Positions 13,811-51,719 of a DNA stretch of 64,000 bases are shown here, piece after piece (position 1 is the first letter of the stretch; every line of letters begins with the position of its first letter). The translations under genes were made by a program, and so were the position numbers. The notes beneath the pieces are model-generated. The model saw only the letters and a list, made by a program, of their open reading frames with translations, searched no databases and was not told where the DNA came from. Source of the DNA: Dioscorea cayenensis subsp. rotundata (taxonomy: Eukaryota; Streptophyta; Magnoliopsida; Dioscoreales; Dioscoreaceae); assembly GCF_009730915.1 (NCBI RefSeq), contig NC_052475.1:26969016-27033015 (forward strand). The letters run 5' to 3'.

Positions 13811-14749
13811 TGGAGAGGATTGAACCCTGTGCTTACAGCTAGGGTTAGGGTAGTATTGAGTATTTGGGGGCACCGAGCTCTTCAAATCCTACATTACTTT
13901 TTTCATTTACCCCCTTGAAATCCCAGATATTTCTCGGTGCCTCCTTATGTCATATTTTCTTATATACCCCTTAAAAAAAAAGTTTCTAAACTCTTCATTG
14001 GTGAAAAATGGAGTAAATTTTTTGGTAGGTTACCTATCTTATGCCTTTTTTCGAAAAGGTATCCCACCTTTAATTTGTATCAAAAAGGTATCCAAAGTTG
14101 TGTTTTTATTTCATGCAGGGTGACCCCGACCAAATCCGGTCATTTAGGCGATGTGGCGGTTTAGGGCATTGTTTTTGTTGCCACGCCAGGCAAAAGCCAC
14201 ATCGACCAATAACCATGTGGACTTCACCTGGACTACCCTTTCATCCGAGAAGAGGGAGGTCGAGGCAATATGGATTTTTCATCATTTCTCCACTGGGAAA
14301 AACGAGATGCAATTCCTCTCATTAGAGAAGAGAGGCGGGCAATATAGATGCGGAGAAGGAGGATGGTTGAGTGAATTGAGAGAGCACAAAAACCTAGACT
14401 TCAAGGGAAGGAGGAAGTTGTTTTTGTGTTTTTCTTGTTTGTTTTAATTCTTTTTTTAGGGGAGCAAGATCATATTGTTTAGTCCCACAATTTTGCACAT
14501 CAAATCATATCGGTTGATTCAATCTGCGGGCTTAGCATGGTTGATCTTTGGAATCTTTGAGTTCGGGGTATAGATTCGAGGGTTCGATTGTGTAATGTGT
14601 TGTCTTTCATATTGATTAAGTTTAAAAATAACTTTGATGTACCACAACAATGAAGGTAGGATTTCAATGAATTGATGTGTTTGTGTTTTGAATTTGAGTA
14701 TGAATTTTTATTTTGGTGCGATGTTATCTTGACAAAAAACCAAATATTA

Positions 14750-15233
14750 ACTCACTCCAACTTTCGAATGCATAAGACTCACTTCAAAATTTTAAAGATT
14801 TCACCTGGACACTGCAAAAACAGTGAGAAAAAAAACTAGAGAAAATTGCATGTAACAAAGCGGAGAAAAGCGGAGAGCCGAATTGAAAAATTGTGTCTGC
14901 TATTGATTCAATGGTAATAATTTTTTTACAAAATTGTGTGCGAGGTTTAGAGAATTCTAACCCTCTCATCTGCGAGGGTTTACATAATATTAACTCACTC
15001 CAACCTGAATGCATAAGACTCACTTCAAAATTTTAAAGATTTCACCTGGACACTGCAAAAAGCAGTGAGGAAAAACTGAGAAAATTGCGGTGACAAAAGC
15101 GGAAAAAGCGGAGAAAAATAAAAGCGAATTGAAAAAGTTTGTATCGCTATTGATTCAATGGTAATAATTTTTTTACAAAAATTGTGTGCGGGGTTTAGAG
15201 AATTCTAACCCTTTCATACTGCAAGTTTACATA
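14750..15233. repeat. ~240-bp tandem duplication inside MULE-A
   Basis: The segment beginning TTAACTCACTCCAAC at 14750 and ending GTTTACATAAT near 14988 is repeated immediately at 14990-15233 with scattered mismatches and indels. The matching part of MULE-B (about 50560-50800, reverse complement) has a single copy, so the duplication arose in, or was introduced into, the A copy only. Confidence 0.8.
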
Positions 15234-15560
15234 ATACCAAAGCTGCAGAATTCTAAGTCTGCGAGGTTTACAAAATGAGCTATTTCCGAATATTGCAGTC
15301 TTTACAACATACATAGAACCAATGAAGTACCAGAATTCTATACCAAAATACATATGCAGGTTAACATAATACCAAGCCTCTGAGAATTCTAAGTCGCGGG
15401 TTTACAAAAATTGAGCGACATTCGGAAAGCAGTTTTTCCAAAATATTACGATTTTTACAACATACCTAGAACCGTTGAAGCACCAAAATTCTATACAAAA
15501 ATTCATTGAACCAATAAGATTGCGGTTGTAGTTGCATAGCAACTCTCTCATGGTAATTGG

Positions 15561-18500
15561 TCGATGGCCTCCAACCCCCAGTGGCAACCCGGATCTTCCT
15601 CTTTTTGTCGGCACATGTCGGAGTGCATTGGATTCCCCCCTTCTTTGTTTTTAACTTGAGTTTGGTTGTAATGGTTTGATTGTTTGTCTTTGTCTATATT
15701 GAAATTGCTGGAAAGTAGAATTAATCCAATCTATCAATAATAAAAAATTACAACAATATTCAAAATATTCTAAAAATAATTAACTTACATGTGTTTTTTT
15801 GCTATCCCTAACTTGAGTGCGCTTTTGTCACTGTTGCATCCTGCGAGATCTACGTGTATGTGTATTGAATGCACGCAATTGAGCCATTAGGGGAACTAAT
15901 CAAAAAAATTAATTACTACAACACAAGTTACAAAATAGATTGAGAGGTTCATATACCTGATCTTCCACTTGTGGATTTGGCAATTGTGTGGTAGGTGATT
16001 TTCCATATGATGCACCACAAAGCGAGAGCTGTAAAAAGCTGCGATGAAACACATAAAGGTGTCATCGGACTCATGGACAACTCTAATAGTAATTAACACA
16101 AACAATGCAAATTCTCACCTGTGGTGGTTTGGTGTACCTATGTTAGATGAATTTCCCTACGCCTAGAAGGGAAGTCCACCTCATGGAACCTTTTTATTGT
16201 GGCCTTGTGCACCACAAACACTGCAAGTCATCCTCATACCTTTCTTACTCACCTTTCCCTTGTTGTAGCCACTTGTTTCACCAAACTCCCTTTCTCCTAA
16301 GCATGGTTTTCCTGCCCTTTCTCTTGTTTATTGGATGTGGTGGGATGATGGGAGGATGATCACTCCTTGGCCAAGAATCCCTATCATGAGTAGGGTGAAG
16401 GATGTGCCTATATGTTGACATGAAAAGTGCTTGACTTTTGTAACAAGGGTCAAGATAGTCCTCGGGGCTTCTCCCTATTATGTCTGAGGACTGAAATTGA
16501 GTGACTACAAGGGATCCCACTAAAAGCTGCCACCTTCTACATGAACACTTGGACTCTGCTTTGTTGACCACAAATTGACCATCAGGACCAACAACTTGGT
16601 ACTTGTCCCCTCCCGACCATGTAGTATTATAGTACCAACTATGTTGTTTGGATTTCTCAAGCTTTTTTTAATATCTTAGGGGCAATGTGTGGTTTGTCAC
16701 CCTATGCATGGCATCTCTCCTCTTTTGGATCCTCTTCATCAATTGTGTTCTTATCATTTTAGTTCATTGTAATAACCCCTTAACCCTAGCTTCTAATATA
16801 TTCTTTCGTTGAAAACCTCACAAAGGTTATTTAGTAAGATGTCACACTTAAATTGGGTGTGGAAGTGTGATCTACTCAATGTTTTTGGTTCTATCTTTTT
16901 CATGAACTCAAATGCCCCTAACGACATCCCTTTCAACCCCTCCATTGCTCTCTCAAAAGGCGACAAGGTAGAAGCCTTAGCACATGACCAAAGTTGGTCC
17001 TTAATGGCTTTTCCTCTAAAGTTCTTTTTCAAATTGGTGTGAATATGCCTAAGGCAGATGCCGGTGCTCACTTTGTTTGGCAAAATATCGACTAGTGCGG
17101 GCATCAAACCCTAGTGTAGAAAATAATCAAGTGAACCATACCCATCAACCCATAATCACAACACATGCCAAGAAAAAAATAAAAAAAGAAAGAAAAAAAT
17201 TACATTAGAAACCATTGGTAAGAGCAAATTAATTAACAAGGAACTCATGTACTTATTGGTTGAAAAATCCAATCAAATAAATAAAGCAATTCATCTAAAA
17301 ACATTTTAATTAACATCAAAGCAATAACTTATACAGTTTAATAAAAATTATGTTAGAACCCTAAATCGAGAACAATTTTACAAATGTACTTATTGGATCG
17401 CATCCAATTAAATAAATAAAGCAATTCATCTAACAACAATTTAATTAACACTAAAAGCAAATATTTACACACAGATTTAATAAAATTTTGTTAGAAAATT
17501 AAATCAGAACAGTTTGTTAATGTACTTATTGGATGCAAATCCAATCAAATAAAAAGAATGTTAAAAGCAAATACTTACACACGATTTAATTAACATCAAA
17601 GCAAATACTTACACAGATTTAATAAAAGAATGTTCCTCACCTTACATGCATCGACATGAATGCCCAATCTTGGTCATCGGTGATCCTCGGATCTGTTTCA
17701 ACACTTGTAGAAACTTGGTCCAACTCTCTTTTGTTTCTCTGTTGACCATAGACCATGCTATGGGATAGATGCGATCATTGCCATCTATCCCAGCGTGATA
17801 ATAAGCGGCCTCCATACAATCCTTTGAGCCAGCATCCATCAAGTGACACAATTTTCCTCTGACTGCCGGAAACCAGCCCTCGGAGGGGCAAGGCAGGACA
17901 TACATACCTTGAAACACTCCTTCTTCACTGCGGTCGATGATGATAGTTGAGCCGAGGATGTGTCCTCATCAACTCCAACCTATAGTCATGCAACATGTGG
18001 ATGCGTGTCTCCTCATCACCATCAATGATCCTTGAAAAACAACAACCATACACAAAAAAACATATCGGTTAGAAGACATGTGAAGGTTAATACAACAAAA
18101 GATTTATAAAGAAAAAAATCACCTACATGCTAAACACTTAGCTACGTATGCCTTAAAGCCTGCTGATTTCTACTTCTTGATTTGTTTTCCACGACTTGTA
18201 TGATCCGGCTATTTTCCAAGTTGGATGCACTACTGAGCTGCTCTAAATAATGCCTTGCAATCCGATGCAGCTGACATGCACTGTTATTATGATCCCTAGA
18301 GCACTGCGTGCTCAAGCACTATTTGTTTTAATTTGTCTTTGTGGCTTTGTCCCTCACCATGGGTGATGCCCACAAGTAGAAAGGGCATCCCTTCTTACAA
18401 TAGGCCTTGCATTTTCTTCTTGGTGTTTGGCCTAAAATTCATCACATATCGATTCTTAATCCCATAATTTCGACTGCCTCCTTGAGCTGTTTGAAATCTC

Positions 18501-20303
18501 CGAATTTCATGCCAATTCTAAAATGGGGGGTTCTCCATGTCAACATCCCCATTAAATTCGGGATATCTACACTTGGGTGGAGCTAAATCTTCCTCATCGT
18601 GGAAGATCGCAGGGTATAAGTTATGCGAATCACCATAATCCTCCTCATCATCAAGGTCAGAACTAGCATGTGCTCCATACTTGCCTATGGGTTCTTCTTG
18701 TGACCTATCTTCATTCCCCAGGGGTTCATCATCAGATTTATCACTGAAACTATAATCAGAGTCATGGAAATCCCACTCTTCATCAACATTCTTTTCCTTC
18801 CCTTGACCACCAACTATAATTTCCTCCAATTTTTGCATCATCCATAATATCATCTCCATCATCTTCTACATCTTTCAATAGCCCCACATTTGCATGATCA
18901 TCTTCGTTGTCCCAATGTCATGATCCGAAGGGTGGCCACCACTAGGAAGATTGATATACACCCATGTCTCCTTAGTACTCCCCAGCAGGGACGTGGCCAT
19001 GTCTAAGGCTTCTAAATCGGTTTTTATCTCCTTATAAACCCCCACACAGTCCTTCCATCCAACCATCCAATTGAGAAGCCCTCTACATCCAAAACCAAAC
19101 TCCTTGGCCATGCTAACTAGTTCTAGCCTAGATATTTGGTCGACACTAGCGATAATCTATGTAACCAGCAAACCCTTCTATCTCATCCAATCTGTAATGA
19201 AGCCTTATTGTGAACAATTCAGCATCTGGCACTGTAAGAAAGCATGCATTTCAGTAAATTAATTAAAAACAAACTATGTAGACACAATCTAAAACTAAAA
19301 AACTAGGAAGTAATTAAATCATATGGCATATATCATTTGGCCACAATCAATTGAAGAACAAACAAAAAAATCGACCTTTGAAGTGTAACAAAAAAATATT
19401 TTTTTACGCTCAATTATGGTAGGGGTAATAACATGTACATAAAAAAAGCAGGACATTTATAATTGAGGGCTACAATTGAGACTAGCAATGGCCACTTAAA
19501 TATATGTAGACAATAATAAGCGACAAAGTTAGTCACCGGAATGGGTATCAAAAAAACAATAAAAACCATAGCAACCTAATTATTTTCACACAACTAAGAC
19601 CCCCCAGTGACATTAACACACTAACGAGAAAAGGAGGCGAGGGACAACTAATAACTCAATTGAATATGCAACTAGAATAGACAAAAATGGGGAGGCGGTG
19701 CCAAGACAAATGATTGGGGGGTAAGAAAGTTTCCTATTTTTTTCAATCGATTGGGAATTAAACTACAACACAATCACTTGGGTAAATGGCATCAACAGAA
19801 TGGCATTAAAAAATAAAAATAAAACCATAACAACCTAATTATTTCACACACCACACAAAAAGAAAAGGAGCAGGACAAACTAATAACTCAATTGAATATG
19901 CAACTAGAATAGACAAAATGGGGAGGCGGTGCCAAGACAAACATTGGGGGTAAGAAAGTTTCCTATTTTTTTCAATCAGTTTGGGAATTAAACTACAACA
20001 CAATCACTCGGGTAAATGCCATCAACAGAATGGGATTTAAAAACAATAAAACCATAACAAAACCATGACAACCTAATTATTTCACTCAACTAAGACCCCC
20101 ACTGACATTAACACACTAAAACAATAGGGACATCAACAATCGCGATGTACATCTAAGCGTATATAAACACATCGAAGCTTCTTGAAGCCAGCTGTTCATC
20201 ACAACAAACACAAGCATCACATCTCTTTGAAAAAGAAAATCACTTCGATGATCAGGTGCTTCCCTCAGCCCCTCACGTAGAATCTCCCAGGTTACCACGC
20301 CAT
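15561..20303 (-). pseudogene. Broken MULE transposase (MULE-A)
   Basis: Counterpart of the MULE-B transposase in reverse orientation. Recognisable blocks, 5' to 3' on the minus strand: start region near 20303, PB1-like N-terminal segment and acidic linker at 19200-18518, the MuDR DNA-binding region around 18480-18170, the catalytic core start (CMEAAYYHAGIDGND, where MULE-B reads YGGQLLSAVGIDGND) at 17917-17642, the IRHIHTNLKKNF-like helix region at 17107-16793, and a SWIM-like Cys block at 16571-16278. Many one- or two-base indels break the frame, and the stop codon position reads CGA instead of TGA near 15561. The catalytic SLDGCW segment is disturbed. It cannot encode a complete protein as written. 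Confidence 0.85.
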
Positions 20304-20741
20304 CTACGTCGTCGGAGAGCCCAAGTGAACTTGAAGCGGCGCTCCCTTCACCCGATTCACGATTCGCACAAAACCCTAAACTTTGTCTATCGCAATCTCG
20401 CGGTCGAGACAACGAGCCACTTGTCCAAATTCGAGATTCCAGCGAAGGGCTTCTCCAGAGCCCAGCGTGGCAGCGATGGCTTCATCTCACTCGACCCTAT
20501 CTTTTTGTTTTTGATGGGGTACAAACCAAATGACTCAGCGGCTAGATAGAAGCCAGGTTGGAATACCCCAGATGACTCAGCCACGTCGACTAAAATGACC
20601 CGGGATTTGGTCGAGTCACTTTCTTAGATTGAAATAAAACACAACTTTGGATACCTTTTTGATGCAAATTAAAGGTGGGATACACTTTTTGAAAAAGGCA
20701 TAAGATAAGTAACCTACCAAAAATTTACTCAGTGAAAAATG

Positions 20742-21554
20742 AGTTGATATATGTTTGGACTCATGAGAATTTAATTATTTTATAATTCAGTATACCTCTA
20801 GTAGTTGTTTCTATATTATTATTGTTTTGTGTTGTTATTTCATATTTAGGGTATAATTGGGTAGGCCAAAATTATTGTAATATATATTATTAAAATTTAA
20901 TTATTTTATAATTCATATTATTTTTTTTTAGCTTTTAGAGCTAATCCGTCTTTCTTCTTGTTGGTGTACTTTTATTTATTTAATATATATGATTTATTCA
21001 TCTTGAAAAAGAAATTAACTACTTTATCATGAGAAAGTCATGTGTGTACCATACTACCGTAAACAAGAGCCATGGTTTTTCACTTTTAAATGCATGATGT
21101 AATTATTAAAACGCATTCACACATTTTCTTTTAGAAAAATAAATAAATGATAAATTTATTTAAAAAATGCAAACAAACCCAAATAATAAAAAAAAAGCTT
21201 AAAAAAACCATAAAAAACAAGATGAGGTAGCAATCACAGAGTGAAGTCAACCAAAACAACCAATAGCCAAGCAAAATACAAAAAGAAAAAAAAAACAGTT
21301 AGAAAGACAAGGTATCAGCTAGAAAGGTGAAAAACATCTTCTAATGTCAGCCAAGGCTTGTACCATATACTCATTTTTATTGATAAAGAAATTCTATAAT
21401 TATTAAAATACATAATAATGATAATAAAAGAGGTGAGTTAATTTCATTTATACCCCTTGGAAAACATCAATTCAATAACAATTAACAAGTCACCTTGCAC
21501 ACCAACACCAACAACCTTACGTAACTTTTTCAAAGGGACTAAATCGGAAAAACA
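20742..21554. other. Spacer between MULE-A and the broken peroxidase copy
   Basis: AT-rich DNA without a gene. In reverse complement it matches 44405-45279 (between the intact peroxidase and MULE-B) along its whole length with indels, so it belongs to the inverted duplication. It includes the former 3' UTR of the peroxidase copy. Confidence 0.7.
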
Positions 21555-22857
21555 TCACGAATTGAAAGCCGCGCAATCTCTTCGAATCTCTCCATCAGTG
21601 CCCGTCTTCACCCCCGTCCGCCCGAGCTTCACCATCGCCGTCGCGAACGCCGCGAAGAAGTCGCCGGAGCTGGAGGCGAAAGTCGCTGACCGTCGGCTGC
21701 GAGATCTGGTCCGTGAACAGCACCTCATCGGACGTGAACGGCCCTTCCCTTGCAACAAATTCTGGTAATACGCGTTGTCGAAAAGCGTTGGGGTCGAAGG
21801 ATCCATGTTGATGGCGATGGTCGGATCGACGTTCGGCGGGCGATCGCGGATCAGCTGCTGCGCGTATGAAGAATCGAGCGGGGATCGATCTGGGAGGGCG
21901 AGTTGAAGGGTAGAGGCGGGCGGAGAACTTGGAGCAGTGGGAGAAGCCTACGGTGTGAGCGCCGGAGAGGGGCGATCATGTCGATCATCGAGAGGTTGTT
22001 CTTATTAAAGAGATCGAGTTCAGGAGGTTAAGATCGAAGGTCGGTTCCGGGGAGGTTGCCGGCGACACGGGATGCCTGTGGGGATGAGGGCCATCTCGCC
22101 GTCCGAGCTCAACGTTTGATTTGGACCGCCGCTCTGCCGGTGGTGTTTGATATTATGCGTCAATGGAGATGGGATTGAAAAATGGGGGAAGAAGGGCTTA
22201 CGAGGACGACGACGTCTCTGGCAGCGATGGCAAGGATGTCGGCGCAGGAGGACAACGTTGGGGCAGACGGCGTCAACGGCTTTGCCAGCTTTTGATGACG
22301 GTATCGAAGCCGTGCGCCGGCGAGGAGAGGTTGTCCGGCGCGTCCTTCTCCGCGTCTCCGTTTGGTGATGCTATCATCACTGATGCATCACAGCCCTGCA
22401 TTTTAAAAAGGTCATTTTTGCTCCTTTTATATTTTGAATCATCATTAATAATTTCTATATTTATTTAAATCATGCATAAATCTTCAATATTTTGTGCTTG
22501 TTTACAAGTATTTTAGGTTCAACTGAGGGCAGGTGAAAGTGACAGAGTGAAATAGAGAAGTGAAATATAAAACTAATCAAACAATAGTGTCCTCTTTGAG
22601 TATGCATGTATGTTGTAGCCATTTTAAGTTTGTTGTTAGTCAATGGCTTCGCCGAGAATATTGACTTCATAACTTGGGGTGGGACTGCCAGCTGAACTCA
22701 GATAATAAAGATAATGTGAAGACCAAAGAGAATATCCTAAAGTGGTGGACAAAACGAGCCACCCAAAGTGTAATTTGGTTGTCCTAGACAGCAACTAGCA
22801 ACTCAACATTTTCTGAAACTGTGGGTTCTGTTTGTAACATGAGGAAAATCAAACATG
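21555..22857 (-). pseudogene. Broken, partial class III peroxidase copy (arm A)
   Basis: Reverse-complement copy of the intact peroxidase at 42718-44404. The last exon corresponds to 22133-21555 (579 bases against 576) and the middle exon to 22395-22202 (194 against 192); the intervening intron and the start of the first intron are also present. Several small indels shift the frame, for example a 4-C versus 5-C run at the DPSTPN region, an extra T before the Ala-Ser-Ser block, and extra G residues near 22081-22091. The first exon would lie inside the N gap that starts at 22858. The small-indel pattern beside a contig end could also reflect poor consensus quality, so this may be an uncorrected copy rather than a true pseudogene. 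Confidence 0.8.
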
Positions 22858-23857
22858 NNNNNNNNNNNNNNNNNNNNNNNNNNNNNNNNNNNNNNNNNNN
22901 NNNNNNNNNNNNNNNNNNNNNNNNNNNNNNNNNNNNNNNNNNNNNNNNNNNNNNNNNNNNNNNNNNNNNNNNNNNNNNNNNNNNNNNNNNNNNNNNNNNN
23001 NNNNNNNNNNNNNNNNNNNNNNNNNNNNNNNNNNNNNNNNNNNNNNNNNNNNNNNNNNNNNNNNNNNNNNNNNNNNNNNNNNNNNNNNNNNNNNNNNNNN
23101 NNNNNNNNNNNNNNNNNNNNNNNNNNNNNNNNNNNNNNNNNNNNNNNNNNNNNNNNNNNNNNNNNNNNNNNNNNNNNNNNNNNNNNNNNNNNNNNNNNNN
23201 NNNNNNNNNNNNNNNNNNNNNNNNNNNNNNNNNNNNNNNNNNNNNNNNNNNNNNNNNNNNNNNNNNNNNNNNNNNNNNNNNNNNNNNNNNNNNNNNNNNN
23301 NNNNNNNNNNNNNNNNNNNNNNNNNNNNNNNNNNNNNNNNNNNNNNNNNNNNNNNNNNNNNNNNNNNNNNNNNNNNNNNNNNNNNNNNNNNNNNNNNNNN
23401 NNNNNNNNNNNNNNNNNNNNNNNNNNNNNNNNNNNNNNNNNNNNNNNNNNNNNNNNNNNNNNNNNNNNNNNNNNNNNNNNNNNNNNNNNNNNNNNNNNNN
23501 NNNNNNNNNNNNNNNNNNNNNNNNNNNNNNNNNNNNNNNNNNNNNNNNNNNNNNNNNNNNNNNNNNNNNNNNNNNNNNNNNNNNNNNNNNNNNNNNNNNN
23601 NNNNNNNNNNNNNNNNNNNNNNNNNNNNNNNNNNNNNNNNNNNNNNNNNNNNNNNNNNNNNNNNNNNNNNNNNNNNNNNNNNNNNNNNNNNNNNNNNNNN
23701 NNNNNNNNNNNNNNNNNNNNNNNNNNNNNNNNNNNNNNNNNNNNNNNNNNNNNNNNNNNNNNNNNNNNNNNNNNNNNNNNNNNNNNNNNNNNNNNNNNNN
23801 NNNNNNNNNNNNNNNNNNNNNNNNNNNNNNNNNNNNNNNNNNNNNNNNNNNNNNNNN
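22858..23857. other. Assembly gap of exactly 1000 N
   Basis: A run of N from 22858 to 23857, exactly 1000 positions, which is a common placeholder for a gap of unknown size between scaffolded contigs. The sequence to its left is homologous to an internal part of the right-hand contig in opposite orientation. Order, orientation and distance across this point are therefore uncertain. Confidence 0.97.
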
Positions 23858-24020
23858 ATGTATGTAATGGTTGTAGTATTAGTTTAAGCAATGACCCCCA
23901 TGACTCACTATTAAAATATAACTTTGTGGTCATGCTAGTGTTTGGTGGATGGTAGTAATGTAATGGTTTTATGAGATTAGAGCATTTTTTAAAATGTGAT
24001 TTATGATTCAAGGCCATGAG

Positions 24021-24072
<52 letters not shown>

Positions 24073-26172
24073 TGTTTAAATTGATGCATATAAATATATT
24101 GAAAAAAAAATTCATCTTCATGTAAATAATATGTTTATGATAGAGTTGTCTCTTCTTTATGATTGTTACCTTTTGGATACAATTCAAGAGGAATATACAT
24201 AAAGTGGACTCAATTCAAGGGTGGACCCTAAAGTGTACAACAAAAGCTAATATAACACTCTCTCCTTCTTGCCGTATTTATATTTTTTATCACTTAAAAG
24301 TAATTTCCTTTTATTTACGTGTTCATCAGTGAAGGTTGTCTTTTTTTTAATAATCAATTATAGAGTATTACTACAAATGGCAAATCAAAATTGACATTTT
24401 GAATTTTTTTTTAAAAATTAATTCATTCAAATTCTGTAAAATTTTATTTTATTTTTAAGTTGAAATGATAATTTTGTTCATGTAAAATTACATTTAGAAT
24501 TAATTTTTTTATTTGTCTATTAACATCTCATTTTGCGTGATTAATTTTTTTAGGAAATTGAATGTTAATATAATTCGATCCAAAATAAGTAAATTTAAGC
24601 TAAAATGATTTTTAGGCAATACAATTTTTGTTTTATAAATAATACAAAGGAAATTTTAGTTTTTAAGATTTATCATTGAGCATATTACATATACTTTTTA
24701 GAGTACCAATATAACTAGTATATGATTGAAACTGCCAATCTGGTAAGACCCACAAGATCATCATCATCATCAACACCGTCTCCACAAGGACCATAAATCA
24801 TTGTACTAAAAGCCCAAATGTAGGCCCTTTGGGTCAGAAATTCAGACCCGGATAACTTGGTCAAGTCCAATCAAATTTGGTGACAATCAATCAATCTTTT
24901 GAGCTTCATTTCCTTTCAATCATGTATATACATTCATTTGGGCTGTTTATTGGCCTGTTAACAGCCCACACCCCAAAACATAAAAACACTAATGAATCTC
25001 ATAATTTTTGTTTTTCCAACATGACTCAGGTGAGAAGTTAAACAGATTGATCTATTGTAAGACAAGCATTTGTCTTTATCTATACATACATTCTTGCATA
25101 CATATTTATATATTTTTATTAACTTGAATGAATGAATAAATGAATGAATGAAGGCATAGGAAAAGGGGAAATGTCTGACAGCTCTAAAGAGGAGGGCTTG
25201 AGAAAGAGCTACTCCACCTCTGAAAGTCAATGAGGGTGGTCACAAAGGACCACGCCACAACAAGGTCCACAACTGAAAAACAATGCCTTCCAGCCTTTGA
25301 GCAGACCCTTGCATAACGCCAAGCTCTTGTGCTTTTTTGGCCTGTGAATGCACATGCCAACCCTTTTTGTGTTGTAGATACGAAGTATTCTTTGTAGAAC
25401 ACTCCTTTAAAGACAAGAAGAATATGTGCATAATGGTTTTTTTTTTCTTTTCTTTTCTGTTATATTTTGTATAAATGGTCAATATATACACGTACACACA
25501 CACACGAGGATCGGTTACTAAGAACGTTCTCGTAGAAATGTTTTAGTAACCATTGAATTGAGTATCTAACGGCTACAGATTATCCATTAGAATGAGCAAT
25601 ATATGAAGCAGTGCTACAATTAGTATAATAGGGTGCACATTAACTTTGTGAACCATGCTATGAACAGTAAAGTGTGATGTGTATTATTTTGTTGACTATT
25701 GCCCGACCATTATATCAATAGTAATTATTTCAATTGTAGCAATTGGAACTAATTTACAACCCCATCTCACATAAAATTTTATAAACCAACAACATCCACC
25801 CATGCATTCTCTACCTTTTTGTTTCCTACGAACGTCTAATGTCTATATATATATACATTTTTTATGGTAGACAACAAACGCTCTCATAAAGAGAGTGCAC
25901 TAGTTACGATGGCTTGTATACCTCATTTTTAGAGAAAAATCTCATATGTTATGCAACTTTGAAATATAAGTGTAGATTATATAGACCTTTGATCATAAGG
26001 GACCTTGTGCTTATGTGTGTTGAGTGGCTCGAACTCAAGACCTCTCACAGCACCAAAGCCGGTGATACTATTGAGCTTTTATGTGTAGATGGTCAAAATA
26101 TGATAAATATATTTTATTTGTGTGCCAAAAACAGAATAGAATGGTTTGGAGTTCTTGCATTAATAAAATTAT
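23858..26172. other. AT-rich intergenic DNA
   Basis: No gene recognised. A pure (AT)n microsatellite spans about 24028-24067. A block at 24720-24960 is slightly GC-richer. Short open frames at 25184-25503 and 25914-26174 are on low-complexity or unrecognised sequence. Around 25505-25760 there is a region of moderate complexity (starting GAGGATCGGTTACTAAGAACG) that may be an old transposon fragment, but I found no convincing terminal repeats. Confidence 0.45.
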
Positions 26173-27075: not shown

Positions 27076-28156
27076 AAAAATTGAAAGAATTGATGGCGAA
27101 CTCAAGATTTCTAGAGATGTGAGTTAGCTGGGAGATAAGATTTTCACTATTAAAGAAAAAGCCTTGATTTTCTTTGCACCTCTACCACCGCTCAGGAGAT
27201 TGCTTATGCATATGACAGCTGAGACCTTAGAACCTCCTAGAGAGCTATCATGACTATTAAAATCATTGAGTGACCATAGAAGATTAATCTTTTATGGACA
27301 CCATCACCTTAAGCTTTATCTATCTATTTATTTATTTATCTCTATATTTAATTAGTGATTTATCCTAGTTTTTATATCAATTTGTATTTGTTATCTTTGT
27401 ACCCCTTCATCCTACTCTTTTTAAAAAATAAAATAAAATTATGATTTATTCATTTTTATAAAAAATAGAAAAATAAAAAATTATATAATTTTTGAATTAT
27501 AAATGAAGTTTATATATTTTTTATTTTTAAACAAGTTGTTTATTAGAAAATATTGGAACAAGTGATTTAGTTAAAAAAAAAATCAAGGAAAAAAAAATAT
27601 ATTTTGCGTCCACAAATTTTAAAAACATAATCATAGACAATAATTATAAAAATAGTACAAACAAATTATTAACTCCAAGCCTATGTATATGTTAATGACT
27701 TTTTTTAAATAAAAGGTGTTTGTTGCTAATAAGCTAAAAAAAAAAAAACAAAACTAATAGAAAAGTAAATGGATAAATATAATCAAATTAAAGTAATTGA
27801 GTTGAATTTGAATTCAAAATAACTCATGAGTTGACCTTTTGATTTGTGTATTTCATCATGATTCATGAACATGAACACATTGGTATTATTTCTTACTTAA
27901 CTTTAAAGTAAACAAATCTTATTCCCATTCTCAAGAATGTCATGATAAAATTCATCACCCATATAAAATTCTATTTGAAATGAATTTGGGGGAGGTGGCC
28001 AAAAAAGTGTCATCAAGGATGGCATTGATTCTTGAAAGAACTTGATTGCATTTTTGATTTAAGAGGACATTTCCAATTGCACTCACTTGCAAGTCAGAAA
28101 AGGCAAAGTGTGAGAGCCCCATCCATTTAAGAAAATAATAATAATAATAAAATAAC

Positions 28157-40114: not shown

Positions 40115-42717
40115 GTCTGGCATGGATTAGGTATATGTAGTTTTGTTTGTAATAATAAAGCAAAGAATCTTAGGAGTTAATCGGCTCTATCTGACGGTTG
40201 TTTGCTTTGCTGCCCCTTTGTTGGTACTATGTTTATGAAGATTAGCTTGTTAATTTTATGTAATGATGCTCTAATAGTCTCCTGTTGTCTTTTGGATATT
40301 GCTTGGATTGATCAATAAGTCTCGTCTAGTGGGGTATGCTCTACTTTCTTATTATTTCTATGATGATGCGATATTGAATCTGCATTATTGTGTTATATGG
40401 TTGTCCCAACCCATTTAACTTTTTACATGTTTATTTGTTGTGTCGAAATTTTTTTCTTGTAAGCTTAGATTGTTTCTATTTGAATTGTTGATCTAGCTTG
40501 ACCTTCCACTCTTATTTTAGAGACCAACGCATATCACCTATTTAGTGCCTTTATATAATTCTTGGTGGATTCCTTGGGAGCAAATGCATATCACTTATTT
40601 TAGAGCCTATTGAACTTCCATTCTTAATAAAATGCTACAGTTCTTTCTTTGGATGTGGATTCCTTTGGAGCAAATGCTTTGCTTGCTCTTATAGGCCAAT
40701 AGACTCCAGATTGATGGTTATGTATTTCATTTTGAATATATTGAATGTGATGCAATAGTTATTTATGCAATTGAAATTAATGCTTAGCTGTATGGGTATT
40801 ACGCATATTTTGTGAACATAGAATTTGGATGTGGTGAGTTCTAGCTCAAATGAAAAATGTAATTTGATATCTCTTGATGCTGTTTGTACTCAAGCTTGTG
40901 TTTTAAATTATCATCATTACTGCATTCATACTAAAGAATTTTGAAGGTTCTAGGACACAACAATAAGTCAGAGGTTGACGAAATTTTTGAAATTTTATTC
41001 CTACTTTTAGCAGATGTAAAGCTGATGGAAGAGTTTTGAGGTTTGTATAATAATTGGTTCGCCTTGAATGATATAGAACAACAAACATACTTCAATTGTT
41101 GCTTGCTGAATTTGTTTATGGTCATGAAAACATTTTCGTTTGATTTGTTGCAACTTTGATCCTTTGTCAGTGAAGTTGTTGGCTAAACGACATTGTTTTT
41201 TCCATTAGAAGCTGCCTCAAAGATACTTGGAAGTTTTATTGTAATTATTATTGTTTGGCATGTCCAATTATGCATTTGGGCTTTATATGCCTTACCGCCT
41301 ATTTACTTTTATGGTTGATATGCTCATAGCACATCTATGACTGATCTGTCATCTGAACTTCTTTTTACCCTGTTATTTCCTTTAAATTGTGGCTGTTGTT
41401 TGTCAGCTTGATTTTCTTAAATTATTTCGCACTTTTGGTTGGATCAGTAATATGTTGTGTTCATTGTTATGGCGTACGGAAGTTCCTATTGTTCTTACAT
41501 TACTTGTTTATGTTGATTTTGACTTTTCAAAACATCTGTTGTTATCATTTAGTTGTTACAGATTTAACTTTAAAACATAGGCATTGTTGTAATTAGAGGA
41601 GTATTTTGATAAATAATACAAGTAATTGGGCAGTAATTAGTATGTGTATCTTGTTTGCCTGAAACTCGAGATCGTAATTTCATTAGATGTCAATCCTAGA
41701 CCTGGGTGAGTCGCATATGCTGATATCCTGTTTCACTTTGTTTACAAAATTGATGTTATGTTTCCATTTGAGTTTTCTTTCGCACACCTTTTAAATTATT
41801 CTTAATTGATTTTTGCTATGTTGGGTTGTTTAATCTATTGGAGCACCGCCCTTCCATTTATATGTTGCAGAATAAATATTTAAATAACATTCATTGACAA
41901 AACCTCGGTTCAAGAGTAAGAAGCTAGCATTAAGCTGGGAATTTTGGAATTTGTACCAGATTGAAAGTTCGATCCCTCTAACTATGTGATCATCAGGTAA
42001 TTTGATACTATATCTAGTGTTTAAATATATGCTCAATTTGATCCAAGAATCAACTCATTTATCATTTTAACATAGACAAACTAAGATAAATGCTCCACAG
42101 TCAAAAAATCATGTTTTCTGAAATTATGTCTGTTCAACTTGATATTGATTCTGCTTAGTGTCATTATCTATTGATTATTGTCACAGATTAATAGGTAATG
42201 ACCGAGTATATAATTGAATCTTTCTCATCTACCAACTTTGCATGAATCTTTCTTATTGACCAAGTGCACATGATTTAACCTTTCTCTGAATTTTTTTCTA
42301 TCTAAACATTTCAAGCCTAACATACTTTGAATTTATGGTCTATTTGTTCCTGAAGCTGCAAAACAAACAATTCAATCACTCTGTATTAGTTGGTATGTCA
42401 ACATCCTCTCATATGGATGCCATCAAGACCATAACAAAACATGGGAAAGTAGCTGCAGTTAAGTAACCAAACCTAGAGGCTTATGATTGAGCAAGAGATT
42501 GAGATCATGCCATTTTCTTATTAGGAGGAATATTGTATTCTTAACATTGATTTTGACTTAAGCATGGGGCATTTGTTTAATTAGGTTTGCTTGCAAGGCT
42601 TACCCTAGACCAAGTTTAGATTGCTTAAATTAAGTGCAAATTGAGGTTGAGAGCATGCTCTGCTACTCCTTTATATCTAACAAGACAAACTAACAGCCAG
42701 TAGAGATTGTATTGGAG
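40115..42717. other. 3' UTR of acetolactate synthase and intergenic DNA
   Basis: AATAAA-type polyadenylation signals lie at about 40154-40159. The rest is T/A-rich with no recognisable gene. The phrase GGATTCCTTnGGAGCAAATGC recurs near 40569 and 40659 as part of a short direct repeat of ~90 bases. A weak TATA-like TTTATATC is at about 42670-42677, ~45 bases upstream of the peroxidase ATG. Confidence 0.5.
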
Positions 42718-44404
42718 ATGGAGTTATGGAAAACTACCTTTTTTACAGTGATGCTGCTCTTGGCTGTAGGAACAGGAGAAGGGCAACTGGTGGAGAACTT
42801 CTACAGCTTCACGTGTCCGAGTGTTGAAGCCATTGTTCGACAGGTTGTGACAAACAAGATAAGCCAGACATTCATCACCATTCCGGCGACTCTCAGGCTC
42901 TTCTTCCATGATTGTTTCGTTGAGGTAGTTGATATGCCATGCTCTTCTTTCTATTCATGTGATTCTGCCCATTGTTGCAAATTATGTCATTAAATTCATT
43001 GTTTCTCTTCTTGTTTTCTTCAATCCAAAGACAAGTCTTTCTTTTGGTTTTGTTGCTCTTCATTCAACCAAAACAACAGAATAAGCAAATTTCCATCATG
43101 TTTGATTTTCCTCAGTACAAACAGAACCTTATGTTTTAAGAAAATGTTGAGTTGCTAGCTGCTGTCTAGGACAACCAAATTACACTTTTGGGTGGCTCGT
43201 TTGTCCACTAATTTTATGATATTCTTTTGGTCTTCATTATCTTATTATTTGAGTTCAGCTGGCATCCCAAGTTATGAAGTCATTCTCATATGAAGCCATT
43301 GACTAACAAACTAAAATGGCTACAACATACATGCATACCAAAGAGGATAAAACTATTGTTTGATTAGTTTTATATTTCATTTCTCTATTTCACTTGTCAC
43401 TTACCTGCCTCAGTTGAACCTAAAAAATAGTTTTTTTTTTCTTTTTTGAAAATACACAAAAATATTGAAGATTTATGCATGATTTAAATAAATAAAAATA
43501 AAAATTATTAATGATGATTCAAAATATAAAAAAAAGGAGCAAAAAATGACCTTTTAAAATGCAGGGCTGTGATGCATCAGTGATGATAGCATCACCAAAC
43601 GGAGACGCGGAGAAGGACGCGCCGGACAGCCTCTCCCTCGCCGGCGACGGCTTCGATACCGTCATCAAAGCCAGGCAAGCCGTTGACGCCGTCTGCCCCA
43701 ACGTTGTCTCCTGCGCCGACATCCTTGCCATCGCTGCCAGAGACGTCGTCGTCCTCGTAAGCCCTTCTCTTCCCCCATTTCTCAATCCCATCTCCATTGA
43801 CGCATAATATCAAACACCTACCTGGCAGAGCGGCGGTCCAAACTTCAACGTTGAGCTCGGACGGCGAGATGGCCTCATCTCACAGGCATCCCGTGTCGCC
43901 GGCAACCTCCCGGAACCGACCTTCGACCTTAACCTCCTGAACTCGATCTTTAATAAGAACAACCTCTCGATGATCGACATGATCGCCCTCTCCGGCGCTC
44001 ACACCGTAGGCTTCTCCCACTGCTCCAAGTTCTCCGCCCGCCTCTACTCCTTCAACTCGCCCTCCCGGATCGATCCCTCGCTCGATTCTTCATACGCGCA
44101 GCAGCTGATCCGCGATTGCCCGCCGAACGTCGATCCGACCATCGCCATCAACATGGATCCTTCGACCCCCAACGCTTTCGACAACGCATATTACCAGAAT
44201 TTGTTGCAAGGGAAGGGGTTGTTCACGTCCGATGAGGTGCTGTTCACGGACCAGATCTCGCAGCCGACGGTCAGCGACTTCGCCTCCAGCTCCGGCGACT
44301 TCTTCGCGGCGTTCGCGACGGCGATGGTGAAGCTCGGGCGGACGGGGGTGAAGACGGGCACTGATGGAGAGATTCGAAGAGATTGCGCGGCTTTCAATTC
44401 GTGA
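42718..44404 (+). CDS. Class III secretory peroxidase (Arabidopsis PER16/PER45-like)
   Basis: Exons 42718-42924, 43565-43756, 43829-44404; phase-0 GT-AG introns; 324 residues. Heme peroxidase using H2O2 to oxidise phenolics in cell wall or vacuole. The signal peptide is residues 1-22 and the mature protein begins [15 protein letters not shown]. Distal active site [11 protein letters not shown] gives R60 and H64, and [14 protein letters not shown] continues it in exon 2. The proximal heme ligand is H191 in [26 protein letters not shown] and [15 protein letters not shown] are family blocks, and the C-terminal [12 protein letters not shown] is complete. The ATG at 42718 gives a clean signal peptide. 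Exon 1 is AT-richer than exons 2-3. A partial, broken copy lies inverted at 21555-22857. Nearest named relatives are the PER16/PER45 group by sequence pattern. Confidence 0.96.
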
Positions 44405-45279
44405 TGTTTTTCCGATTTAGTCCCTTTGAAAAAGTTACGTAAAGTTGTTGGTGTTGGTGTGTTAGGTGACTTGTTAATTGTTATTGAATTGATGTTTTCC
44501 AAGGGGTATAAATGAAATTAACTCACCCTTTTATTATCATTATTATGTATATATAAAGTTTTTAGTAATTATAGAATTTCTTTATCAATAAAAATGAGTA
44601 TATGGTACATGCATGAGTGATCTACTCTCATCTTCTCGGCTTGGGAAAGCCTTGGCTGGCATTAGAAGATGTTTTTCACCTTTATAGCTGATACCTTGTC
44701 TTTCTAATTGTTTTTTTTTTTTTTTTATTTTGCTTGGCTATTGGTTGTTTTGGTTGACTTCACTCTGTGACTGCTACCTATTTTTTTGTTTTTGTTTTTA
44801 TGGCTTTTTTAAGCTTTTTTTTTTTTATTTGGGTTTGTTTGCATTTTTTTTAAAAAAAATTTATCATTTATTTATTTTTCTAAAAGAAAATGTGTGAATG
44901 TGTTTTAATAATTACATCATGCATTTAAAAGTAAAAAACCATGGCTCTTGTTTACGGTAGTATGGTACACACATGACTCTCTCATGATAAAGTAGGTAAT
45001 TTTTTTTCAAGATGAATAAATCATACATATTAAACAAAATAAAAGTACACCAACATGAAGAAAGACAGATTAGCTCAAAAAGCTAACAAAAAATAATAAA
45101 AATTATAAAATAATTAAATTTTAATAATATATATTACAATAATTTTGGCCTACCCAAATATACCCTAAATATGGAATAACAACACAAAACAATAATAATA
45201 TAGAAACAACTACTAGAGGTATACGGATTATAAAATAATTAAATTTCATGAGTCCAAACATATATCAATCATTTTTCAC
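44405..45279. other. Spacer between the peroxidase gene and MULE-B
   Basis: Peroxidase 3' UTR and AT-rich DNA with T runs (44710-44727, 44817-44827). Matches 20742-21554 in reverse complement. It ends in CATTTTTCAC (45270-45279), the reverse complement of the target duplication that flanks MULE-A. Confidence 0.7.
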
Positions 45280-45705
45280 GAGTAAATTTTTTGGTAGGTT
45301 ACCTATCTTATGCCTTTTTTCAAAAAGGTATCCCACCTTTAATTTGTATCAAAAAGGTATCCAAAGTTGTGTTTTTATTTCAACGGCAGGTGACCCTGAC
45401 CAAATCCGGTCATTTAAGCTGATGTGGCCGCTGAGTCATCTGGGGTATTCCAACCTGGCTTCTATCTAGCAGCTGAGTCATTTGGTTTGTACCCCATCAA
45501 AACAAAAGATAGGCTGAGTGAGATGAAGCCATCGTGCCACGCGTCGGAGAAGCCCTTTCGCGGGAATCTCGAATTTGGACAGTGGGTTCGTTGTCTTGAC
45601 CGGGCGGAGATTGCGATAGACAAAGTTTAGGGTTTTGTGGCGGACTGTGAATCGGGTGAAGGAGCGCTGTCGGCTGAAGTTCAGTTGGCTCTCCGACGTA
45701 CGTAG

Positions 45706-48700
45706 ATGGCGGTTAACTGGGAGATTCGGCGTGAGGGTGAGGAAGCACCGGACTACTGTAAGTGATTTTCTTTTTCAGTAGATGTGATGCTTGTGTTTGT
45801 TGTGATGAACAGTGGCTTCAAGAAGCTTCGATGTGTTTATATACGCCTAGATGTACATCGCATTGTTGATGTCCTATTGTTTTAGTGTGTTAATGTCAGT
45901 GGGGGTCTTAGTTGAGTGAAATAATTAGGTTGTCATGGTTTTGTTATGGTTTTATTGTTTTTAAATCCCATTCTGTTGATGGCATTTACCCGAAGGATTG
46001 TGTTGTAGTTTAATTCCCAGCCGATTGAAAAAAAAAATAGGAAACTTTCTTACCCTCATTTGTCTTGGCAATCAGTTCCCCATTTTGTCTATTCTAGTTG
46101 CATATTCAATTGAGTTATTAGTTGTCCTGCTCCTTTTCTGTTAATGTGTTAATGTCAGTGGGGGTCTTAGTTGTGTGAAATAATTAGGTTGCTATGGTTT
46201 TATTGTTTTTGATACCCATTCTGGTGACTAACTTTGCTGCTTATTATTGTCTACATATATTTAAGTGGCCATTGCTAGTCTCAATTGTAGCCTCAATTAT
46301 AAATGTCCTGTTTTTTTATGTACATGTTATTACCCTACCATAATTGAGCAGAAAAATATTTTTTGTTACACTTCAAAGGTGATTTTTGTTTGTTCTTCAA
46401 TTGATTGTGGCCAAATGATATATGCCATATGATTTAATTACTTCCTAGTTTTTCAGTTTTAGATTGTGTCTACATAGTTTGTTTTTAATTAATTTACTGA
46501 AATGCATGCTTTCTTACAGTGCCAGATGCTGAATTGTTCACAATAAGGCTTCATTACAGATTGGATGAGATAGAAGGGTTTGCTGGGTACATAGATTACT
46601 GTTGTGCTGACCAAATATCTAGGCTAGAACTAGTTAGCATGGCCAAGGAGTTTGGTTTGGATGTAGAGGGCTTCTCAATTGGATGGTTGGATGGAAGGAC
46701 TGGTGTGGGGGTTTATAAGGAGATAAAAACTGATTTAGAAGCCTTAGACATGGCCACGTCTGTTGGGAGTACTAAGGAGACATGGGTGTATATCAATCTT
46801 CCTAGTGGTGGCCACCCTTCAGATCATGACATTGGGACAACAGAAGATGATCATGCAAATGTGGGGCTATTGAAAGATGTAGAAGATGATGGAGATGATA
46901 TTATGGATGATGCAAAATTGGAGGAAATTATAGTTGGTGGTCAAGGGAAGGAAAAGAATGTTGATGAAGAGTGGGATTTCCATGACTCTGATTATAGTTT
47001 CAGTGATAAATCTGATGATGAACCCCTGGGGAATGAAGATAGGTCACAAGAAGAACCCATAGGCAAGTATGGAGCACATGCTAGTGCTGACCTTGATGAT
47101 GAGGGGGATTATGGTGATTCAGACAACTTACAGTCTGCATCTTCCACAGATGAGGAAGATTTAGCTCCACCCAAGTGTAGATATCCTGAATTTAATGGGG
47201 ATGTTGACATGGAGAACCCCCATTTTAGAATTGGCATGAAATTCAGAGATTTCAAACAGTTCAAGGAGGCAGTCAGAAATTATGGGATTAAGAATCGATA
47301 TGTGATGAATTTTAGGCCAAACACCAAGAAGAAATGCAAGGCCTATTGTAAGAAGGGATGCCCTTTCTACTTGTGGGCATCACCCATGGTGAGTGACAAA
47401 GCCACAGTACAAATTAAAACAGGTGTGCTTGAGCACGAGTGCTCTAGGGATCATAATAACAGGCATGTCAGTGCAGACTGGATTGCAAGGCATTATTTAG
47501 AGCAGTTCAGGGCAGATCCAACTTGGAAAATAGCTGGGATCATACAAGCTGTGAAAACAAATCAAGAAGTAGAAATCAGCAGGCTTAAGGCATACAGGGC
47601 TAAGTGTTTAGCACAGAGGTGATTTTTTTTCTTTATAAATCTTTTGTTGTATTAACCTTCACATGTCTTCTAACTGATATGTTTTTTTGTGTATGGTTGT
47701 TGTTTTCAAGGATCATTGATGGTGATGAGGAGACACAGATCCACATGTTGCATGACTATAGGTTGGAGTTGATGAGGACACATCCTGGATCAACTATAAT
47801 CATTGACTGCAGTGAAGAAGGAGTGTTTCAAGGTATGTATGTCTGTCTTGCCCCTCTGAGGGCTGGTTTCCTGGCAGGCTGCAGGAAAATTGTGTCACTT
47901 GATGGATGCTGGCTCAAAGGATTGTATGGAGGCCAGTTATTATCTGCTGTTGGGATAGATGGCAATGACTGCATCTATCCCATAGCATGGTCTATGGTCA
48001 ACAGAGAAACCAAAGAGAGTTGGACCAAGTTTCTACAAGTGTTGAAACAGGATCTGAGGATCACTGACAGCCAAGATTGGGCATTCATGTCAGACAGACA
48101 GAAGGTGAGGAACATTCTTTTATTAAATCTGTGTGTAAGTATTTGCTTTGATGTTAATTAAATCTGTGTGTAAGTATTTGCTTTAACATTCTTTTATTTG
48201 ATTGGATTTGCATCCAATAAGTATATTAACAAACTGTTCTGATTTAATTTTCTAACAAAATTTTATTAAATCTGTGTGTAAATATTTGCTTTAGTGTTAA
48301 TTAAATTGTTGTTAGATGAATTGCTTATTTATTTAATTGGATGCAGATCCAATAAGTACATTTGTAAATTGTTCTGATTTAGGGTTCTAACATAATTTTA
48401 TTAAATCTGTGTATAAGTTATTGCTTTGATGTTAATTAAAATGTTTTAGATGAATTGCTTATTTATTTGATTGGATTTTCAACCAATAAGTACATGAGTT
48501 CCTTGTTAATTAATTTGCTCTTACCAATGGTTTCTAACAGAATTTTTTTCTTTCTTTTTATTTTTTCTTGGCATGTGTTGTGATTATGGGTTGGTGGGTA
48601 TGGTTCACTTGATTATTTCTACACTAGGGTTTGATGCCCGCACTAGCTGATATTTTGCCAAACAGTGAGCACCGGTACTGTCTTAGGCATATTCACACCA

Positions 48701-50156
48701 ATTTGAAAAAGAACTTTAGAGGAAAAGCCATTAAGGACCAACTTTGGTCATGTGCTAAGGCTTCTTACCTTGCTGCCTTTGAGAGAGCAATGGAGGGGTT
48801 GAAAGGGATGTCGTTAGGGGCATTTGAGTTCATGAAAAAGATAGAACCAAAACATTGGAGTAGATCACACTTCCACACCCAATTTAAGTGTGACATCTTA
48901 CTAAATAACCTTTGTGAGGTTTTCAACAGCAATATATTAGAAGCTAGGGTTAAGGGGGTCATTACAATGAACGAAATGATAAGAACACAATTGATGAAGA
49001 GGATCCAAAAGAGGAGAGATGCCATGCATAGGGCGACAACCACACATTGCCCTAAGATATTAAAAAAGCTTGAGAAATCCAAACAACATAGCTGGTACTA
49101 TAATACTACATGGTCGGGAGGGGACAAGTACCAAGTTGTTGGTCCTGATGGTCAATTTGTGGTCAACAAAGCAGAGTCCAATTGTTCATGTAGAAGGTGG
49201 CAGCTTAGTGGGATCCCTTGTAGTCACTCAATTTCAGTCCTGTATTACAATAGGGAGAAGCCTGACGACTATCTTCACCCTTGTTACAAAGTCAGTACCT
49301 TCATGTCAACATATAGGCACATCCTTCACCCTACTCATGATAGGGATTCTTGGCCAAGGAGTGATCATCCTCCCATCATCCCACCACATCCAATAAACAA
49401 GAGAAAGGGAAGGAAAACCATGCTTAGGAGAAGGGAGTTTGGTGAAACAAGTGGCTACAACAAGGGAAAGGTGAGTAAGAAAGGTATGAGGATGACTTGC
49501 AGTGTTTGTGGTGCACAAGGCCACAATAAAAAGTTCCATGGTGTGGACTTCCCTTCTAGGCAGAAGGGAAATTCATCTAACATAGGTACACCAAACCAGT
49601 CACAGGTGAGACTTTGCATTGTTTGTGTTAATTACTATTAGAATTGTACATGAGTCTGATGACACCTTTATGTGTTTCACTGCAGTTTTTTACAGTTCCT
49701 GTTTGTGGTGCATCATATGGAAAATCACCTACCACACAATTGCCAAATCCACAAGTGGAAGATCAGGTATGTGAACCTCTCAATCTATTTTGTAACTTGT
49801 GTTGTAGTAATTAATTTTTGATTAGTTCCCTAATGGCTCAATTGCAGGCATTCAATACACATACACAGAGATCTGCAGGATGCAGTCAGGTGACAAGAGC
49901 AGACCAAGTTAGGGTTAGCAAAAAAGCACATGTAAGTTAATTATTTTTAGAATATTTTGAATACTGTTGTAATTTTTTATTATTAATAGATTGGATTAAT
50001 TCTACTTTCCAGGCAGCTCAATATAGACAAAGACAAACAATCAAACCATTACAACCAGCTCAAGTTAAAAACAAAGAAGGAGGGGAATCCAACAGACCCA
50101 GATGTGCTGACAAAAAGAGGAAGATCTGGTTGCCACCAGGGGTTGGAGGACATTGA
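45706..50156 (+). CDS. MULE transposase (MuDR-type, PB1-like N-terminus, SWIM zinc finger)
   Basis: Seven-exon model: 45706-45757, 46520-47618, 47711-48104, 48628-49605, 49686-49766, 49848-49931, 50013-50156. Every junction is GT-AG and in frame; 943 residues. Order: a PB1-like domain at about 18-100 (LFTIRLHYRLDEIEGF), an acidic linker, the MuDR DNA-binding region at about 255-375 (PHFRIGMKFRDFKQFK, Cys pairs CKAYCKKGC), and the DDE core with candidate residues D448 (SLDGCWLKG), D512 (FMSDRQKGL) and E612 (LCEVFN). The SWIM finger is C701-x-C703-x9-C713-x-H715. A zinc-knuckle remnant CSVCGAQGHNKKFHG lacks the last Cys. The small first exon is the least certain part. The protein would cut and insert the element via its terminal repeats in the nucleus. 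Whether it is expressed is unknown. Confidence 0.83.
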
Positions 50157-50190
50157 CCAATTACCATTTTTTTTTTTTTGAAAGAGTTGC

Positions 50191-50600
50191 TATGCAACTA
50201 CAACTGCAGTCATATTGGTTCTATGTATTTTTTATAAAATTTTGGTGCTTCACTGGTTCTAGGTATGTTGTAAAAACTGCAATATTTTGGAAAACTGTTT
50301 CCAGAATGTCAGTTCAATTTTGTAAACCTGCAGACTTAGAATTCTGCAGGCTTGGTATTATGTAAACCTGCATATAAGAGTGTTAGAATTCTGCACACTT
50401 ATTATGCAACTACAGTCTTACTAGTTCTATGTATTTTGGTATAGAATTCTGGTACTTCATTGGTTCTATGTATGTTGTAAAGACTGCAATATTCTGGAAA
50501 CAGTTCAATTTTGTAAACCTGCAGACTTAGAATTCTGCAGGCTTGGTATTATGTAAACCTGCAGATGAGAGGGTTAGAATTCTCTAAACCTGCACACAAT
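50191..50600. repeat. ~210-bp tandem duplication in MULE-B subterminal region
   Basis: The segment starting TATGCAACTACA at 50191 is repeated at 50403 (period 212) with mismatches. Both copies contain GGTTCTATGTATnTTGTAAA and AAACCTGCAGACTTAGAATT blocks (50323 and 50516). Subterminal repeat arrays of this kind can hold transposase-binding sites in DNA transposons, but that role is not shown here. Confidence 0.75.
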
Positions 50601-51719
50601 TTTGTAAAAAAAATTATTACCATTGAATCAATAGCAGATACAGCTTTTCAATTCAGTTTTTTTTTTCTCCAGTTTTCTCCAGTTTTGTCAATGCAATTTT
50701 CTCTAGTTTTTTCTGTCGCTTTTTGCAAAAGTGTCCAGTGAAATCTTTTAAAATTTTGAAGTGAGTCTTATGCATTCAAAGTTGGAGTGAGTTAATATTT
50801 GGTTTTTGTCGAAAGATAACATCGGACTCAAAAATAAAAATTCATACTCAAATTCAAAACACAAACACATCCATTCATTGAAATCCTACCTTCATTGTTG
50901 TGGTACATCAAAGTTATTTTAAACTTAATCAATATGAAAGACAACACATTACACAATGAACCCTAAATCTATACCCGCAACCAGCATTCCAGCATCAACC
51001 ATGCTAAGCCCGCAGATTGAATCAACCGATATGATTTGATGTGCAAAATTGTGGGACTAAACAATATGATCTTGCTCCCTAAAAAAAGAATTAAAACAAA
51101 CAAGAAAAACAAAAAAACAACTTCTTCCTTCCCTTGCAGTCTAGAGTCTAGGTTTTGTGCCTCTCTCAATTCACTCGACCATCCTCCTTCTCCGCATCTA
51201 TATTGCCCGCCTTCTTCTCTAATGAGAGGAATTGCATCCGCTTTTCCCGTGGAGAAATGATGAAAATCCATATCGCCTCGACCTCCTCTTCTCGAGATGA
51301 AAGGGTAGTCCGTGGTGAAGTCCACATGGTTATCGGGTGATGTGGCTTTGCTCAGGGCGTGGCAACAAAAACAATGCCCCTCAACGGCCACATCACCTTA
51401 AATGACCGGATTTGGTCGTGGTCACCCTCGCTGAAATAAAAACACAACTTTGGATACCTTTTTGATACAAATTAAAGGTGGGATACCTTTTTGAAAAAAG
51501 GCATAAGATAGGTAACCTACCAAAAAAATTAACTCCGTGTTTTTTTACTAGTGATGTGCACAAACTTGACAATGGCTTGAGTTATAAGAATTTTAAGCCC
51601 CATTATTATGTAATATTTTTATTCTTTAAAGCTATCTTTAACATACCAATAAATAAATAAATAAATAGGCTTAAGAATTTTTGTAAAAAAATTAACACTA
51701 AATCCATAAATAAATGTAG

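Follow-up and report, generated by a model that had tools for sequence, protein, structure and literature searches.

The window, as we call the whole stretch of 64,000 nucleotides that was analysed (C5:26969016-27033015, in an assembly of 584 Mb and 2249 contigs), contains identified genes that are all of plant type, and is interrupted by a single run of N, exactly 1000 long, at 22858-23857. The sequence before this placeholder gap (1-22857) is referred to here as contig 1, and that from 23858 onward as contig 2. Contig 1 carries, at 3618-13888, a nodulin-like MFS gene (+), a DnaJ/DUF3444 frame of 770 aa (+) and an adenylate kinase 6 (AK6) exon (-), while the left part of contig 2 carries peroxidase exon 1 and the genes for acetolactate synthase (ALS), an F-box protein and a zinc-finger protein. 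Comparing the window with itself by BLAST returned three inverted matches, at 14004-14989/51542-50547 (90.0%), 14986-19850/50799-45913 (91.1%) and 19792-22857/46227-43097 (89.0%), and chance is excluded as the source of this similarity. The original prediction had thus placed the two inverted arms correctly, arm A at 14011-22857 and arm B at 43097-51535, with 89-91% identity by BLAST, and had rightly seen that arm A ends at the gap, its last base being 22857 and the N run starting at 22858. Its description of a base by base match did not survive, as the three BLAST matches together contain 405 mismatched positions and open 248 gaps, and two additional tandem copies of ~250 bp (within 14743-15236 and 19533-20088) are present in arm A.

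Each arm consists of a Mutator-like element (MULE) with terminal inverted repeats of ~150 bp, the outer end of which is the outer boundary of the arm (14011 in A; 51535 in B), and of peroxidase exons 3 and 2 on the inner side. The arm B MULE (45280-51535, +) has open frames with DBD_Tnp_Mut, MULE and SWIM domains (PF03108, PF10551 and PF04434), and in the arm A MULE (14011-20730, -) the transposase is broken. Assignment to the MULE class follows from the terminal repeats, the MuDR-type transposase domains of arm B and a 10-bp target duplication in arm A. MULE target duplications are typically about 9-10 bp long. The target site duplication GTGAAAAATG lies on the outer side of the arm A MULE at 14001-14010 (+) and again on its inner side at 20732-20741, after one extra A, and a further copy is found on the inner side of the arm B MULE at 45270-45279; an equally good match arose in 84 of 2,000,000 random pairs. 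In arm B, a search at the outer end of the MULE found no such duplication. Among 12 other MULE copies, perfect 10-bp duplications flank L009, L010, L012 and L013, and L016 retains 6 exact bp; the ends of L014 and L015 sit in AT repeats, L011 showed no target duplication, and for L017-L020 the search motif was absent at one or both ends.

Two tandem structures also distinguish the elements. The ~250 bp duplication at 14743-15236 is shared by arm A with L009, L010 and L012 and is single in arm B, and the ~240-260 bp repeat at 19533-20088 is double in 10 of the 12 other MULEs and single in arm B, L019 and L020. Since other MULE copies carry them, we rejected the notion that the tandem copies of arm A are badly joined reads. 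Only 3 derived MULE letters are common to A and B and absent from all other copies, compared with 21 unique to B, so the case for A and B as one insertion rests on the target duplication and the gene flank. As a side observation, the polished MULE (46501-51000) is strongly depleted in CG, with an observed to expected ratio of 0.05-0.14, even though its transposase frames are open.

The gene bordering arm B is an intact class III peroxidase at 42722-44404 (+), with three exons at ~42722-42930, 43565-43757 and 43828-44404 by our own reading of their limits. By the arm alignment, the gene part of arm B spans 43097-45269 (+) and that of arm A 20742-22857 (-), the latter comprising the 3' flank, exons 3 and 2 and part of intron 1. 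As predicted, the arm A peroxidase is left without exon 1, its sequence running out within intron 1. The frames of both peroxidase and transposase are open in arm B and broken in arm A, and between the arms exons 2 and 3 differ by 11 substitutions and 17 indels, all 17 of them frame-shifting. The gene part gave 19 matches in the assembly, with full length only at arms A and B, and a third complete copy elsewhere was rejected on these grounds. Two paralogues, at C5:10.99 Mb and C12:11.89 Mb, differ from the peroxidase by 109 substitutions and 18 gaps and by 110 substitutions and 13 gaps, respectively.

Differences between the arms are rich in indels, with a gap to mismatch ratio of 274:281 (0.98) compared with 13:116 (0.11) for control repeat pairs of the window (eight pairs, one of which was aligned to itself and contributed nothing). 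Stiff gaps gave 0.59 for the arms and 0.08 for the controls; the ratio is aligner-dependent, at 248:405 (0.61) with BLAST and 155:603 (0.26) with MAFFT, both without controls. These differences lie predominantly on arm A. At gene-part positions where both paralogues agree, 72 substitutions side with B and 8 with A, as do 64 and 14 indel columns (the signal was divided at 16 substitutions and 3 indel columns, and 4 sites fit neither arm), and at 97 sites the two arms share a state that neither paralogue has. The 12 other MULE copies likewise favour B, at 243 substitutions versus 42 for A; their indel columns are less one-sided, with 289 for B and 209 for A (376 columns being ambiguous and 13 fitting neither arm), and in this comparison the private changes of arm B were also indel-rich (39 to 53). 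Restricting the comparison to the five copies with CG below 10 per kb gave 292 substitutions for B and 47 for A, with 356 ambiguous columns. Outside arm A, contig 1 looks clean, and the DnaJ frame of contig 1 (770 aa), the ALS frame (648 aa) and the F-box frame (425 aa) are unbroken. To judge from these comparisons, arm A is unpolished sequence. Relative to B it has more extra than missing bases (183 versus 100 events), an excess suggestive of PacBio CLR noise, but this source was rejected because the sequence context of the errors, described below, fits nanopore reads better. Homopolymer errors account for at most a modest share of the noise, given that 53% of the short insertions (88 of 166) repeat a neighbouring base, with 43% expected, and that 40% of the short deletions (31 of 78) fall in runs, with 50% expected.

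The errors of arm A concentrate at CHG and CG sites. An error was found at 136 of 218 CAG/CTG sites, and the maximum over 500 shifts of the error track was 66. In the MULE, triplets in error comprised 128/181 CAG/CTG, 23/36 CCG/CGG, 44/86 other CG-containing and 931/5879 remaining triplets, and the corresponding counts in the exons were 2/21, 2/45, 7/130 and 67/570. The change is one-sided, with 117 of 180 CAG/CTG sites of B altered in A and 31 of 94 sites of A altered in B (counts from the first of four gap settings, the other three being alike). We rejected deamination of methylated sites as the cause: among the 120 CAG/CTG sites altered in the MULE, just 7 fit simple deamination and 67 acquired a CG, the opposite of what decay would produce. 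Plant transposons carry CHG methylation (PMC8514461), and in unpolished nanopore assemblies mismatches and indels cluster at 5mC positions (PMC12506013), a pattern that arm A resembles. It differs from what the consulted portions of PMC12506013 and of PMC9749173, which concerns plant basecaller accuracy, describe in that the affected contexts here are those of a plant transposon, CHG and CG, and in that a CG often results from the miscall. A literature search for CHG miscalls in plants found no direct description among the papers listed. These observations suggest that the arm A errors are nanopore miscalls at methylated cytosines (5mC in CHG and CG), and that they may persist as a methylation imprint of a silenced MULE.

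A strong CHG-to-CG imprint was also present in 4 of the 12 other MULEs, L012, L014, L015 and L017, with 24-33 gained CGs each; L009, L010, L011 and L019 show a partial one (8-13), and L013, L016, L018 and L020 gained 1-2. Two of the four strongly imprinted copies lie on large contigs (C13 and C14) and two on small ones (C118 and C1548), L014 and L015 being unpolished copies on large contigs. Because unpolished MULE copies occur assembly-wide, noise in the MULE does not by itself prove arm A false, and the noise in the peroxidase, which was found in full only twice, is more telling.

Comparison with the other copies also points to a difference in the composition of the two MULEs. Subfamilies I (L009, L010 and L012) and II (L011, L014, L015 and L017) were assigned after viewing the alignment, and the limits of the segments compared were picked after seeing the comparison data. 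In the inner part (45281-49260, 72 diagnostic events) arm B reads I at 57, II at 11 and neither at 4, and arm A reads I at 49, II at 17 and neither at 6, and a tree places both within group I with an ultrafast bootstrap of 96. Of 29 events in the outer segment (50150-51535), A reads I and B reads II at 20, the reverse holds at 4, both read I at 2, and B reads I with A fitting neither at 3, which brings the events at which arm B reads I to 9 of 29; here the tree places A in group I (95) and B in group II (93). Taken together, these data indicate that the arm A MULE is one element, of subfamily I end to end, with the 10-bp target duplication on both sides, and that the arm B MULE looks like a chimera, of subfamily I beside the peroxidase and mostly II from ~49.3-50.2 kb outwards, with a presumed switch interval of 49260-50150 whose limits were chosen post hoc. 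Within the inner part of arm B, some stretches are most like one copy and others like another, probably owing to cross-polishing; the larger indels, of 27, 8, 12 and 201 columns and all with A as I and B as II, are firmer. Under a criterion of our own for a chimeric contig, a join in conflict with the element that it runs through, the subfamily switch and the missing outer target duplication would fit, as they would fit real recombination; we infer that the assembler produced the chimera.

Outward of arm B lies a LINE (51536-58599, -) with endonuclease and reverse transcriptase spread across several reading frames, which is also found on C4 beside the same MULE end. There, near 394 kb, L011 has this MULE end and nearly identical flanking letters to the outer junction of arm B, and the match extends through the LINE to window position 58599. 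Beyond this point the two places differ, and a simple jump into C4 therefore does not explain contig 2. Of the two LINEs that on C4 is cleaner, with a frame of 661 aa versus at most 205 aa in the window; 75 of its 180 CAG/CTG sites are changed in the window, compared with 32 of 137 in the opposite direction. After the MULE, the C4 sequence continues with a ~400 bp copy, at 96%, of what precedes that MULE, and this transposon nest is complex. A LINE adjoining a MULE, with an embedded remnant of a terminal repeat and a 400-bp flank that is repeated, was observed on both C5 (window 51536-58599) and C4 (L032/L033, C4:384300-394299 and 400800-410799). Base composition, tried as a test of flank B that needs no reference, was suggestive only.

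Flank A gave three matches in the assembly and is found at full length only at its own locus. A related segment on C14 carries an MFS gene (+) with a peroxidase (-) 5 kb beyond it, in the same order and orientation as contig 1 with arm A. The C14 segment supports the reading that flank A is the native neighbour. Within the 40 kb of this paralogous segment (L040-L043, C14:18074000-18113999), DnaJ and AK6 had no match, and neither did ALS, the F-box gene or the zinc-finger gene at E 0.001. In Arabidopsis, we take the gene order to be MFS, peroxidase 55 and zinc finger. A search for literature that mentions two of these genes found none.

Based on the data presented above, it is most probable that one peroxidase locus has been written twice, and that contig 2 is chimeric through the MULE with its left part inverted relative to contig 1, a reading that accounts for most of the observations. 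Contig 1 would end in an unpolished long-read copy of the peroxidase-MULE locus, and contig 2 would hold a polished copy and be chimeric within the MULE: inward of ~49.3-50.2 kb it would represent the peroxidase-linked subfamily-I element, and outward of it the end of a subfamily-II element with the LINE nest also present on C4. Polishing by short reads may have skipped arm A because these reads fit arm B better. The coherent order would be that of contig 1, running from the AK6 side through target duplication, MULE and target duplication to the peroxidase, and the left part of contig 2, with exon 1, acetolactate synthase, F-box and zinc finger, would then follow in reverse. Of the two options that the original prediction had offered, the contig to be merged, or alternative haplotype, is hence the better supported, on the basis of the unpolished arm A, the chimera-like arm B MULE without an outer target duplication and the placeholder gap, and a real inverted segmental duplication the less supported.

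The two written copies are probably two haplotypes, given the residual differences between them. The B branch has an own change of about 0.6% in the gene (8 sites in ~1.4 kb), and away from CG and CHG the arms differ at 15/2488 positions in the transposase, 23/750 in the 3' flank and 17/376 in intron 1. Clean 10- and 38-bp indels also separate them, and these, as well as the 3'-flank differences, look real. The true divergence may be ~1% in the gene and up to 3% in the 3' flank.

A real, young inverted duplication is an unlikely alternative, in which ectopic recombination between subfamily-I and -II MULEs copied the peroxidase and the inner MULE. The new copy, arm B, would carry the chimeric MULE, and arm A would have the original. 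This would account for the I/II chimeric look of the arm B MULE and its missing outer target duplication, for the original appearance of arm A, which shares the MFS (+) and peroxidase (-) arrangement with C14, and for a true divergence that is low yet above zero. The noise fits as well, since short reads from a nearly identical real copy (~1% off) would likewise be drawn to the cleaner arm, and arm B would be polished preferentially. The peroxidase gene would then have been duplicated and inverted within 20 kb, with a potential hairpin source as a result, and the assembly errors would record CHG methylation of a silenced element. However, arm A halts at the placeholder gap, flank B is also present on C4, in keeping with an assembler that jumped through repeats, the divergence varies along the arm from transposase to 3' flank and intron 1, and the second junction was not seen.

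An old inverted duplication whose arm A decayed neutrally to a pseudogene could explain why raw identity is just 89-91% and why the arm A peroxidase and transposase are broken, but has very little probability left. Frameshifts in the exons exceed substitutions (17 versus 11), whereas the paralogues differ mainly by substitutions; altered CHG sites gain CG; and substitutions fall mostly on arm A (243:42 in the MULE and 72:8 in the gene part) rather than being spread over both copies. Least probable of all is a fold-back long-read artefact, one molecule read forwards and backwards, for although the inverted copy carries read-like noise, fold-back copies should be adjacent and the arms lie 20 kb apart, with different genes between them and different outer flanks.

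A locus written twice has parallels among described false duplications. A gap between the copies is one criterion for these in Ko et al. 2022 (PMC9516828), and here 1000 N separate the copies and arm A has the sequencing-type errors; as with the heterotype and homotype duplications treated there, one scaffold holds two copies with a gap between them and errors in one. The present case is unlike them in its inverted orientation and its chimeric join through a transposon. Maize Mu killer (PMC3440606) is likewise an inverted duplication involving a Mutator element and the natural model for the double-stranded RNA idea of the original prediction, but the present duplication is unlikely to be genuine and has 20 kb between its copies.

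Annotated as it stands, the scaffold would gain a false peroxidase pseudogene and a false inverted repeat, and the gene order around acetolactate synthase would probably be wrong. Acetolactate synthase is the target of many herbicides. A cheap test can be suggested: when a transposon in a plant assembly has fewer CAG/CTG and more CG than its family would predict, the copy is probably unpolished nanopore sequence, with errors that may even report its methylation.

Finally, we noted features of the two dispersed partial peroxidase copies, L027 (C5:10984600-10994500, at 4168-6304) and L028 (C12:11889700-11899600, at 4188-6022). L029-L031 and L037-L039 showed no similarity to the window. Both partial copies start at the position corresponding to window 42307, share 2.8 kb of other upstream sequence and have a stop codon in exon 1, and possibly represent a gene fragment captured by a transposon.
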